Shown here one piece after another: positions 1,673 to 4,232 of a DNA stretch of 11,698 bases. The first letter of the stretch is position 1; every line of letters starts with the position of its first letter. The stretch covers positions 1 to 11,698 of the forward strand of contig DGDY01000290.1 of assembly GCA_002385675.1 (NCBI GenBank), written 5' to 3'. Source of the DNA: Anaerolineales bacterium UBA3940 (GTDB lineage Bacteria; Chloroflexota; Anaerolineae; Aggregatilineales; UBA3940). Both the position numbers and the translations under genes were made by a program. Below the pieces are notes generated by a model that was not told the origin of the DNA, did no database searches, and worked only from the letters and a program-made list of their open reading frames with translations.

Positions 1673-3283
1673 TCACCAGCTCCGGATCGTCTCCGCGACC
1701 TTCTCCATCGGCACGGTGCGCTGCTCGCTGTCCTTGCGCGTCGCGCCGAGCCGCCGCACTGTGGCCTCGCCTCGCTTCACTTCGTCCGGCCCGACGATCA
1801 CGACGAACGGGATACCCTTCGCCGACGCATACCCGAGCTGATCCCCAAGCCGAACCTCGTAGTCGTAGTACACCGTCGTGTTGATGCCCGCGCGGCGAAG
1901 GTCCGTCCCGATCCGCAGCGCCGCCTCGACCACCTCCTCATTGAAGATCGCCACCATTACCTCGGCGGTCGTCGAGCGAATGTCCGGCGGGAACATACCC
2001 AGCTCGTCCATCGCGTCGATAATGCGCTCAATGCCGAGGCTCGTCCCCGTTGCCGGGTACGTGACATCCGAGAACAGCCCGATAAGCTCGTCATAGCGTC
2101 CGCCCCCGGTGATGCTCGGCATGGCCTTCGGCTTCTCCACCGTGGTTTCGAAGATCGGGCCGGTGTAGTACTCCAGCCCGCGCACCATCGCGAAGTTCAG
2201 CGAGTACGCCTCTTCCCCTACCCCGTACAGTTCCAGGTAGCGGAACATCTGCTCAAGCTCATCGATGCCCTCCACCGCACGCGGGTAATCGCCCAGCCGC
2301 GCGCGCAGGTCAGCCAGCACTTCTCGCGTCGGCCCGGAAATGTGCAGCAGGTCAAGCAGGCGGTTCACCACGTCTTCGGGGATGATCGCTGCCCGCCTGC
2401 CATAGTAGCTGCGCAGCCCCGGCGCGACCTCCTGCACGATCTCCCGCGTGACGGCCTGCAACTCGCCGGACGGCACCTTCCGCGCGATGGCATCCTCGAC
2501 CTGCGCCCGGAGCGGATCAAGCACCTCGTCTACCAGTTCGGCGTCAAGCCCTTCATCCTCGATCATCGCGCGGCGCATGTCATCGAGCGCCAGCTTGCCC
2601 TGAATCGCCAGCCGCGCGATGCGCTGCAGTGGCTGCACCGGGTCGCTCGGCACGCCTACCATCATCAACTCCCGCCGCACGCCCTCCAGCCCGATCTTGT
2701 CCAGCTTGTCGATCGAGCGATACAGGCCCGGTCGCAGTTCGTCGGGCACACCCGCATACTGCCCGATGCCGTCAAGCAGCTTGCGGTGGTTGATGGAGAT
2801 GGTCACGCCCTCGAAGCCCAGCCGCTGCAGCGCCTCGACCGTCACTGCGACGATCTCCGCGTCGGCCATCATGCTCGCTGTGCCGACGATATCCACGTCA
2901 CACTGGAAGAACTCGCGGTAGCGGCCCTTCTGCGGGCGGTCGGCGCGCCACACCGGGGCGATCTGGTAGCGCTTGAAAGGGCGCGGCAGGTCGGGGTTCA
3001 TCGCCACAAAGCGCGAGAGCGGCACTGAGAGGTCGTAGCGCAGCGCGAACTCGCCGCCCGGCTCCTCGCCGTACCAGGCCCGGTAGATCAGCCGTTCGGC
3101 GTCCGGACCGTACTTGCCCATCAGCGTCTCGGCAAGCTCCACCGCCGAGGTCTGCAGCGGCTCAAAGCCAAATTCCTCAAACACACCGCGCACCACGTCG
3201 AGCACATACTGCCGCTTGAGCATCGCATCGGGCGGGATATCACGCATCCCGGCGGGGATGCGGGGCGCAACCTTTTCAGCCAT
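1673..3283 (-). CDS. hisS: Histidyl-tRNA synthetase, long form
   Basis: Class II synthetase that charges tRNA-His with histidine using ATP, in the cytosol. The product has 536 residues. The catalytic core shows motif 1 around 42-52, the motif 2 region RYDLSVPL (82-89) through FKRYQIAPVWRADRP (103-117), the histidine-binding signature RGLEYYTG (368-375), GGGRYDEL (393-400), and motif 3 GTSLGIERI (413-421). The anticodon-binding domain covers about 440-536. Typical bacterial HisRS is about 420-430 residues; the extra length lies mainly between about 180 and 360, between motif 2 and RGLEYYTG. The ATG at 3283 is supported by AAGGA (3296-3292) 8 nt upstream; the in-frame ATG at 3310 runs into a stop after three codons. 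The gene is preceded by its own promoter, a His-codon leader frame and an intrinsic terminator, so histidine-dependent attenuation is likely. Confidence 0.96.
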   Translation of the reverse strand: MAEKVAPRIPAGMRDIPPDAMLKRQYVLDVVRGVFEEFGFEPLQTSAVELAETLMGKYGPDAERLIYRAWYGEEPGGEFALRYDLSVPLSRFVAMNPDLPRPFKRYQIAPVWRADRPQKGRYREFFQCDVDIVGTASMMADAEIVAVTVEALQRLGFEGVTISINHRKLLDGIGQYAGVPDELRPGLYRSIDKLDKIGLEGVRRELMMVGVPSDPVQPLQRIARLAIQGKLALDDMRRAMIEDEGLDAELVDEVLDPLRAQVEDAIARKVPSGELQAVTREIVQEVAPGLRSYYGRRAAIIPEDVVNRLLDLLHISGPTREVLADLRARLGDYPRAVEGIDELEQMFRYLELYGVGEEAYSLNFAMVRGLEYYTGPIFETTVEKPKAMPSITGGGRYDELIGLFSDVTYPATGTSLGIERIIDAMDELGMFPPDIRSTTAEVMVAIFNEEVVEAALRIGTDLRRAGINTTVYYDYEVRLGDQLGYASAKGIPFVVIVGPDEVKRGEATVRRLGATRKDSEQRTVPMEKVAETIRSW

Positions 3284-3321
3284 TCGTCGTGTCCTTTCTC
3301 ATGTCCTCATGGTGAGTCAAC

Positions 3322-3351
3322 AAAAAACGTGGAGTTGCAGTCAACTCCACG
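3322..3351 (-). terminator. Intrinsic terminator in the hisS leader (attenuator)
   Basis: On the - strand CGTGGAGTTG (3351-3342), loop ACTG and CAACTCCACG (3337-3328) form a perfect 10-bp stem followed directly by six T (3327-3322). It ends 38 bases before the hisS start codon and after the leader frame. It would stop transcription before hisS unless prevented. Its 5' arm is also complementary to 3413-3403. Confidence 0.85.
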
Positions 3352-3413
3352 CTCGAACTTCCAACGGGCAGCCGTCAGGCGTACAGCACCTGCGCCGCTC
3401 CACAAGCGTGGAG
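3345..3413 (-). promoter_or_regulatory. Antiterminator and competing leader hairpin of the hisS attenuator
   Basis: On the - strand, CTCCACGCTTG (3413-3403) can pair with CGAGCGTGGAG (3355-3345): ten Watson-Crick pairs plus one G-U. This would remove the 5' arm of the terminator. The same upstream strand can instead fold locally, CTCCAC (3413-3408) with GTGGAG (3403-3398) around a GCTT loop, leaving the terminator free. A further small hairpin, CAGGTG (3392-3387) with CGCCTG (3381-3376), covers the leader stop codon. The pairings are seen in the sequence; the switch is inferred. Confidence 0.65.
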
Positions 3414-3461
3414 GCGATACCCGTGATGATGGTGGGCGCGGGCCATACGCGTGCGCAGCAT
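3375..3461 (-). CDS. Histidine-rich leader peptide of hisS (28 aa)
   Basis: A short frame starts at ATG 3461 and ends at TGA 3377-3375, coding 28 residues. From the second in-frame ATG (3446) it reads MARAHHHHGYRLH and onward. The four consecutive His codons (3434-3423) are CAC CAT CAT CAC, and a fifth His codon lies at 3410-3408. A purine-rich GAGAAGAG precedes the 3461 start, while the 3446 start has no visible ribosome site. The frame lies about 32 nt after the predicted transcription start and 24 nt before the terminator stem. This is the architecture of amino-acid leader peptides such as hisL of the enterobacterial his operon, where ribosome stalling reports charged tRNA-His. Here the regulated gene is the synthetase itself. 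The peptide is not expected to have a function of its own. Confidence 0.8.
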   Translation of the reverse strand: MLRTRMARAHHHHGYRLHACGAAQVLYA

Positions 3462-3499
3462 ACTCTTCTCGGAATAACCAGGCTTCTGATATCGCTCCT

Positions 3500-3528
3500 A
3501 TTGTAATGTGGCAGGCGCCCGCTTGCAA
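3500..3528 (-). promoter_or_regulatory. Sigma70-like promoter of the hisS leader
   Basis: On the - strand, TTGCAA (3528-3523) and TACAAT (3505-3500) are separated by exactly 17 bases. This matches 4/6 and 5/6 of the -35 and -10 consensus. The predicted start near 3493 lies just upstream of the His leader frame, giving a leader RNA of about 210 nt. Confidence 0.65.
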
Positions 3529-3577
3529 TCGTTGCGCCCGACGAGTGCAGATCGTCAAGGCGATGGATGAGGGGGAG

Positions 3578-3609
3578 CCGCGACGTTTAGCCGCGACGTT
3601 TAGTCGCGG
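3578..3609. repeat. GTTTA-loop palindrome with a tandem half copy
   Basis: CCGCGAC-GTTTA-GTCGCGG occupies 3591-3609, the exact reverse complement of 1618-1636. Its left 13 bases (CCGCGACGTTTAG) are repeated immediately before, at 3578-3590. The element overlaps the end of the HAD gene and supplies its TAA stop (3602-3600) from the loop, suggesting insertion or expansion at the gene end. Confidence 0.7.
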
Positions 3610-4232
3610 TGACGGGTGTTTCCCGTTGTCTCACCCAGCCACACCTCGATCTCGCGCCGCAGGTCCATGCCAGGCCGGTAGTGAACCGCCGCCATGCCGA
3701 CTGTACGCGCCGCCTCCACGTTCTCGATAAAATCGTCCACAAAGAGTGCATCGGCAGGCTGCACATCGAGCTTTTGCAGGATCAGCTCATAGGGTCGGGG
3801 ATCGGGTTTCATGACGCCGATCTCCGCCGAGATCACCTGCGCGTCGAATAGGTTGTGGACCTGATGCTCCAGCAGCGCGTCAGTGAGGTCGGGCGTGTTG
3901 TTGCTCAGCAGCCCGATCAACACACCCCGCGTCCGCAGATCCCGGATCAACTCGACAAGGGCCGTGTTCAGCCGGTCGCCGCTGTAGAAGCCGGCCCGTA
4001 GTTCCGCCAGCGCCTGCCCGTCGAGGCCCAGTTCCCGCCCGACCGCCTGCCAGTAGGCATCCACGCTGATCTCGCCCCGCTGCGCCTGCTGCCACGCCTC
4101 GATGCCATGCACCACACTCTCGACATGCCCGGTCGGCATGCCGAGGCGTGCGTCCCACGCGTGGCGAGGTGAGTAGTCTTCAGTACGCATCAGCACCCCA
4201 CCCCAATCAAAGATGACTGCCCTGCGAGTCAT
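3600..4232 (-). CDS. HAD-superfamily phosphatase (subfamily IA, YihX-like)
   Basis: A cytosolic haloacid-dehalogenase-fold hydrolase of 210 residues, probably a phosphatase for a small phosphorylated metabolite; the substrate cannot be told from sequence. Motif I is FDWGGVL, with nucleophile Asp9 and Gly in place of the second Asp. The same change occurs in the FDLGNV-type proteins related to E. coli YihX, so it need not mean inactivity. Motif II is LLSNN with Ser110, motif III is KPDP with Lys142, and motif IV is FVDD with Asp166-Asp167. The helical cap lies between about 20 and 90. The start at 4232 is preferred because AAGGGG (4246-4241) lies 8 nt upstream; the in-frame ATG at 4238 would sit only 2 nt from it. 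The last codons and the stop come from a dispersed palindrome. It is separate from hisS, which has its own promoter. Confidence 0.9.
   Translation of the reverse strand: MTRRAVIFDWGGVLMRTEDYSPRHAWDARLGMPTGHVESVVHGIEAWQQAQRGEISVDAYWQAVGRELGLDGQALAELRAGFYSGDRLNTALVELIRDLRTRGVLIGLLSNNTPDLTDALLEHQVHNLFDAQVISAEIGVMKPDPRPYELILQKLDVQPADALFVDDFIENVEAARTVGMAAVHYRPGMDLRREIEVWLGETTGNTRHRD

Follow-up and report, generated by a model that had tools for sequence, protein, structure and literature searches.

The leader of the enterobacterial histidine operon, hisL, combines tandem His codons with a terminator and a competing antiterminator, and the synthetase genes of other groups are often controlled by T-boxes. 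Descriptions of leader-peptide attenuation come mainly from Proteobacteria, Actinobacteria and some Firmicutes, and mostly concern biosynthesis genes, according to the accessible portions of two studies (PMC2965389, PMC9413887). A 2022 study reported His attenuators for the his operons of Firmicutes (PMC9413887), and in 2010 Naville and Gautheret predicted a His leader before a Bacillus paralogue of hisS (hisS*) and before hisZ (PMC2965389). For the histidine operons of Actinobacteria, the available part of one study reports no conserved RNA structure (PMC1262725), and a conference paper on Actinobacteria His leaders is cited elsewhere (PMC4833913). No Chloroflexota His leader was among the matches listed in the open-access literature, as far as its texts were accessible; subscription papers, among them a 2010 survey by Lopatovskaya and colleagues, may report one.

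The Chloroflexota locus described here shares with hisL (RF00514) the tandem His codons, the terminator and a predicted competing antiterminator (PMC9413887), differing from it in phylum, in the absence of an Rfam match and in its target, which is hisS and, elsewhere in the same order, also hisG. Three to five consecutive His codons likewise precede the attenuators of Firmicutes, whereas the targets there are biosynthesis and transport genes, hisS going unmentioned in the main text as far as available (PMC9413887). The Bacillus hisS* and hisZ leaders are similar in that a terminator and a short frame containing a stretch of His codons precede a gene of the hisS family, and both they and the present case are predictions (PMC2965389). 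In Bacillus, however, the leader belongs to a second hisS paralogue and the main hisS has a T-box (PMC2965389, in the part accessible), whilst here hisS was the single match at 1e-40 in five relatives carrying the same long HisRS form (G001, G508, G511, G512 and G513). Classical attenuation of a tRNA-synthetase gene is found with pheST and with Streptomyces trpS and leuS, which respond to amino acids other than His (PMC1262725, in the portion available). The preliminary description of this DNA knew of no described His-codon attenuator controlling hisS in such an organism: this holds for Chloroflexota among the matches listed, but the Bacillus hisS paralogue provides a precedent (PMC2965389, as far as accessible). 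What appears to be new is the unexpected place of a known attenuation mechanism, at Chloroflexota hisS plus hisG of the same order, in a putative family that is well supported by sequence comparison.

Throughout, the window denotes the whole stretch of DNA analysed (11,698 nucleotides), in which hisS lies on the minus strand behind the elements listed in Table 1. The hisS product scores 352 bits against TIGR00442 (cut-off 286.75), contains the anticodon-binding domain PF03129 and stays below the cut-off of the hisZ model TIGR00443; judged by these models, it is a true HisRS rather than HisZ. Ordinary HisRS of the order align to it at about residues 4-215 and 301-535, and given the gap between residues 215 and 301, an insertion of about 85 residues seems to be present in the window protein. 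Upstream and on the same strand, a HAD-hydrolase frame ends at 3600. On the other side, positions 1-1371 hold a partial aromatic amino acid lyase (PF00221) convergent toward hisS, whose best NCBIfam models are those of histidine ammonia-lyase, with scores below cut-off.

Table 1. Elements of the hisS leader region, with positions counted from the first letter of the window.
Feature	Positions	Strand	Detail or basis
Promoter TTGCAA-17-TACAAT	3500..3528	-	-35 TTGCAA 3528-3523, 17 nt, -10 TACAAT 3505-3500
Leader frame, 28 codons + TGA	3375..3461	-	ATG 3461, TGA 3377-3375, peptide MLRTRMARAHHHHGYRLHACGAAQVLYA
Regulatory codons CAC CAT CAT CAC	3423..3434	-	Sequence, order survey, shuffles
Arm B, CTCCACGCT	3405..3413	-	Partner is C (antiterminator) or B'
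Arm B', GTGGAG	3398..3403	-	Local hairpin with B
Apical helix CAGGTG/CGCCTG of antiterminator rod	3376..3392	-	Includes T and G of leader stop codon
Arm C, AGCGTGGAG	3345..3353	-	Terminator 5' arm; 9 bp complementary to B
Arm D, AACTCCACG	3328..3336	-	Terminator 3' arm
T run of intrinsic terminator	3322..3327	-	Sequence and terminator scan
hisS ribosome-binding site AAGGA	3292..3296	-	Sequence
hisS, histidyl-tRNA synthetase, 536 aa	1673..3283	-	TIGR00442 above cut-off, PF03129

Each part that the preliminary description had placed here was recovered at its position on the minus strand: the promoter TTGCAA-17-TACAAT, the 28-codon frame with CAC CAT CAT CAC at 3434-3423 and its stop, the terminator with six T, the ribosome site and hisS. 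An in-frame ATG at 3446 (minus strand) makes an alternative leader start possible. The predicted intrinsic terminator stands between leader and gene, its stem running in the scan from 3354 to 3325 with 13 pairs if G-U is allowed, around a core of 9 Watson-Crick pairs (CGTGGAGTT/AACTCCACG). The leader stop lies 91 nt from the hisS start, and only 38 nt separate the T run from hisS, leaving little room there for another promoter.

Promoter and terminator were each the sole one found in 2900-3900; shuffles expect 0.3 and 0.6, respectively, so that either element alone is within chance. When the 320 nt upstream of hisS were dinucleotide-shuffled, a short frame with HHHH arose in 0/4000 shuffles, bearing out the earlier remark that four tandem His codons are hard to ascribe to chance. 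Three His in four codons of a short frame appeared in 44/4000, and such a frame with a terminator 8-45 nt past its stop in 0/4000. The whole leader RNA folded somewhat better than its shuffles, with a z of -2.05 and 7/200 of the shuffles equally good. Searches for known RNA families revealed no match at gathering score to the T-box or to Rfam His_leader (RF00514), either in the window or in 40 further hisS/hisG leader loci. Among the three sub-threshold Rfam matches in the window, His_leader did not appear and none qualified as a T-box; an L20_leader match at 3315-3471 (21.3 bits, gathering 58.7, E 0.043) is probably due to chance.

Recurrence was surveyed in the order, taken as the GTDB order Aggregatilineales, comprising 154 genomes (G001, the source genome of L001, included), of which 138 have a hisS match at 1e-40. 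The larger set comprised 135 of these 138 regions, up to 900 nt each, G438, G449 and G460 being omitted as they gave no N-terminal match. A His-rich short frame with its stop 8-45 nt before a terminator precedes hisS in 39/135, the next amino acid being Ser with 9 and antisense His giving 0; the strict test for His frame and terminator was failed by 96/135. The expectation that the His codons and terminator would be kept as the rest of the leader drifts was realised in those 39/135, their remaining leader residues having drifted. In a smaller set of 91 regions including the window, 32/44 of those with a terminator but 5/47 of those without had three His within four codons of a short frame (Fisher 8e-10). 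Of other amino acids in the 44 terminator regions, Ser came next at 9/44 and none was higher; shuffles of these regions yielded 0.47 His frames on average and 3 at most. Model matches led to further His frames in G425, G407, G410, G405 and G431 (L319-L323).

Typical leaders of the order are short (MFHHHHLTKSS, MIHHHGCTNYY, MTIHHHHFHPCR). His accounts for 158/614 leader codons in 43 leaders, 100 of them CAT and 58 CAC, and the distance from leader stop to terminator is 18-35 nt (38 hisS leaders). Promoter-like sites matching at least 9 of 12 positions with 16-18 nt spacing, at most 90 nt upstream, accompany 28/43 leaders vs 1.7 expected from base shuffles, the commonest being TTGCAA-17-TATACT. 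Leader ribosome sites are weak: an SD-like word was seen at 19/43 vs 9.8 expected, about twofold. ATG starts 42/43 leaders, a count biased by the preference of the leader scan for ATG. By its sequence, then, hisS is preceded by a promoter and a short frame that appears translatable. In L151, a gene for an arsC-like low-molecular-weight phosphatase (named by eye) lies between the His attenuator and hisS, and the frames place one there also in L146, L169, L321 and L322.

Relatives that share the long HisRS form present a mixed picture. L001 (JAFGNO010000137.1, HisRS 69% identity) keeps the leader (...QRHHHHHAYRLHGRGAAQGLYA) and has a terminator in the matching place; by eye its promoter is of the window type, TTGCAT-17-TACAAT, the promoter script having scored a different pair. 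Of the 20 codons that can be aligned beginning with the His run, one extra His of L001 being left out, 8 are identical to the window; 8 of the changes are synonymous and 4 nonsynonymous, with a synonymous difference at each of the four aligned His codons. The run of His codons, the amino acid of the target gene, appears from these comparisons to be kept by selection. L104 and L105 also have long leaders built on the window's plan. It had been held that orthologues lacking the leader would speak against an attenuator, and on this point the relatives divide: L001, L104 and L105 keep it, but L103 (71% HisRS identity) has neither His frame nor terminator, L106 (63%), L107 (55%) and L003 (54%) have a terminator and no His frame, and L002 (74%) has three His among four codons of its frame and no terminator. 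With the leader present in some long-form relatives and absent from others, the element has been gained or lost within the group. At L003:3546-3701, two tandem tRNA-His genes lie upstream of hisS, followed by a AAGCGTGGAGG-type terminator, without a His leader.

Covariation was measured in the compact sister form of the leader. Alignment A2 consists of 26 compact leaders hand-picked from 38, and its covariation is conditional on that choice; kinship can, moreover, inflate such scores. The terminator scored 0.340 vs 0.242, with 0/500 shuffles as high. The antiterminator, in which the region starting at the second base of the leader stop codon pairs with the terminator 5' arm and loop, scored 0.432 vs 0.251, again with 0/500 shuffles as high and with slid controls reaching at most 0.123. 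Changes on both sides affect 7/8 antiterminator pairs, doubly changed cells number 27 vs 9.9 expected, and 81.3% of antiterminator cells pair. The stop codon takes part: its second base pairs as G (TGA)-C in 13 rows and A-U in 6, with A-C in 5 (Fisher 0.02 over 25 of 26 rows, a test that ignores kinship). Two competing helices covary in these leaders, and the covariation across the 26 points to a mutually exclusive antiterminator in the compact form. Folding without the terminator 3' arm, computed without shuffles, produced at least 5 pairs between leader and terminator arm in 35/36 compact leaders, and the leader-to-terminator-arm duplex was stronger than in shuffles at p 0.05 or less for 15/40 leaders (combined p 1e-12). 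The first His lies 18-72 nt from the frame end in 40 leaders. As the ribosome extends about 12 nt downstream (PMC4833913, in the part available) and none of the 40 has its first His closer than 18 nt to the frame end, a stall would leave the antiterminator arm free and a ribosome at the stop would cover it, a geometry that the compact form fits.

In the window, which has the long form, B (3413-3405) can form 9 bp with C (3353-3345). Its leader/terminator-arm duplex reaches -22.2 vs -16.9 kcal/mol in shuffles (p 0.03). The same test gave p 0.02 for L104, with weak results of p 0.14 for L001 and p 0.48 for L105. Folding the RNA after the His run without D placed B:C at the base and the stop-codon helix at the apex of a rod of -30 to -41 kcal/mol (window, L001, L104 and L105). 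With the stop masked and D absent, B:C was still predicted in all four long leaders, more weakly, at -15 to -19 kcal/mol; with D present the terminator was preferred in all four and B entered a local hairpin, whether the stop was masked or not. B lies upstream of a ribosome positioned at the stop in the window, which would not mask it directly. Since the terminator wins with D regardless of masking and B:C persists when masked, equilibrium folds alone give no on/off switch, and kinetics would be needed. We suggest that the rod would form first and persist, and that a ribosome at the stop would weaken it; this is a kinetic argument of which the folds give no proof, and the predicted folds support the window's own switch in part.

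Taken together, the recurrence in 39/135, the promoter-like sites, the antiterminator covariation of the compact form and the hisG counterparts lend support to the original reading of the locus as a His leader-peptide attenuator, and hisS expression is very probably set by the supply of charged tRNA-His through ribosome-mediated transcription attenuation. RNA polymerase would start at the 3528-3500 promoter and make the leader, with a ribosome following on the 28-codon frame. Under ample His-tRNA, the ribosome would clear the His run, reach the stop at 3375 and break the stop-codon helix; B would then fold on B', leaving C free, and the C:D terminator would end transcription before hisS. When His-tRNA is short, for want of histidine or of HisRS, the ribosome would stall on CAC CAT CAT CAC, and during the stall the B:C rod, with the stop-straddling helix inside it, would form before D is made. 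With C occupied by the rod, polymerase would read into hisS.

The hairpin could instead be the ordinary terminator of the upstream HAD-hydrolase gene, with a His frame there by chance. That gene shares the strand, its end lying about 250 nt upstream, the terminator alone is within chance, and at 17/43 leader loci the longest upstream frame is likewise on the same strand. We nevertheless regard this as decidedly improbable: the longest upstream frame is on the opposite strand at 13/43 loci (13 are unclear, the test being a rough one), the T run ends only 38 nt before hisS, a promoter-like site intervenes between HAD gene and terminator, His frames accompany terminators (32/44 vs 5/47), and terminator and leader stop region covary in the compact form. 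Improbable, too, is a translated leader that acts on hisS translation, reinitiation or transcript stability rather than on termination. Other modes of action are known for leader frames (PMC4833913, in the portion accessible), but what is conserved downstream is a stem plus T run, and the 91 nt from leader stop to hisS start exceed the reinitiation reach of roughly 12 nt given in the same portion of that source (PMC4833913).

Direct sensing of uncharged tRNA-His by a T-box riboswitch is exceedingly unlikely given that no T-box match at gathering score was obtained in the window and 40 loci, the best sub-threshold match in the leader being L20_leader at 21.3 vs 58.7 bits; the precedents are hisS T-boxes in Bacillus and Lactobacillales (PMC2965389, in the part available) and the occurrence of T-boxes in Chloroflexi (PMC3766115, likewise). 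It is also very unlikely that the family is real and the window copy a degenerate one that no longer regulates. The full leader is absent from several close relatives and so seems easily lost, and the window's switch is partly supported by folds; against this, the window has all the parts, B can pair with C along 9 bp, and relative to L001 the four His codons have changed only synonymously.

Beyond attenuation of the window's hisS itself, we lean towards the broader view that Chloroflexota evolved, probably independently, a His regulon governed by leader-peptide attenuation, covering hisS (in places with an arsC-like gene) and hisG, in which the antiterminator is built around the leader stop codon and the terminator covaries with whether that codon is TGA or TAA. 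Such a family would offer many natural variants for studying how attenuators arise, get lost and move between genes, and it bears on what makes a lineage rely on a leader peptide instead of a T-box. An antiterminator centred on the stop codon makes clear predictions that reporters can test.

HisG is present in 126/151 genomes of the order. A His frame with terminator precedes hisG at 4/30 loci and in 19/40 further regions (antisense 1), the latter hand-chosen, not random, and scored by a looser terminator rule (5 T rather than 6, at most 60 nt past the stop). Among the genomes with this combination before hisG are G512 and G508, which have the window's HisRS form; of others with that form, G513 and one of two G511 hisG regions have the His frame without a called terminator. 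Most of the 11 hisG leaders whose RNA was folded in the absence of D show, by eye, a helix spanning the leader stop. hisG His leaders with terminators, many of them long, are found at L335, L348, L351, L355, L366, L368-L377, L379, L382, L383 and L398-L402, an example being MINYTLQAHAHHHHHLNASPLWRGDGACVWRA (L402). Around trpE, where the terminator rule was loosened in the same way, 1/30 loci had a His frame with terminator. Those 30 loci gave no Trp leader before trpE at three of five codons, and at two of five one Trp frame, near a locus end (L428). HisG and the TrpE N-terminal domain were not found in G001 and G002, which may be auxotrophs or incomplete genomes.

Distribution was also followed with model R1, built from the 26 compact leaders, which match it by construction. 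R1 matches 62/154 genomes of the order at E 0.5 and 42/154 at 1e-3; it misses G001, the window's relative, and its counts are therefore uninformative on the long form. The weaker or misplaced R1 matches L324, L325, L327 and L328 were set aside as false on inspection. A class sample of 396 genomes, scored with at most nine candidates per genome, yielded nine R1 matches at 2e-6 or better, all in genomes also listed in the order. In the phylum sample, hisS was matched in 69 of 301 genomes, and 34 upstream regions (29 with loci and 5 others) were scored by the frame-and-terminator test used for the 135 regions of the order. It was passed by 4/34, of which L256 duplicates G022 from the order, L269 (MFERTLHHHHDVPDS) and L245 look convincing by eye and L264 is less so. 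The six hits that this test gave in the named group (77 loci) repeat leaders of order genomes. A scan of viral contigs with the His-run pattern returned 15 stretches (L085-L099).
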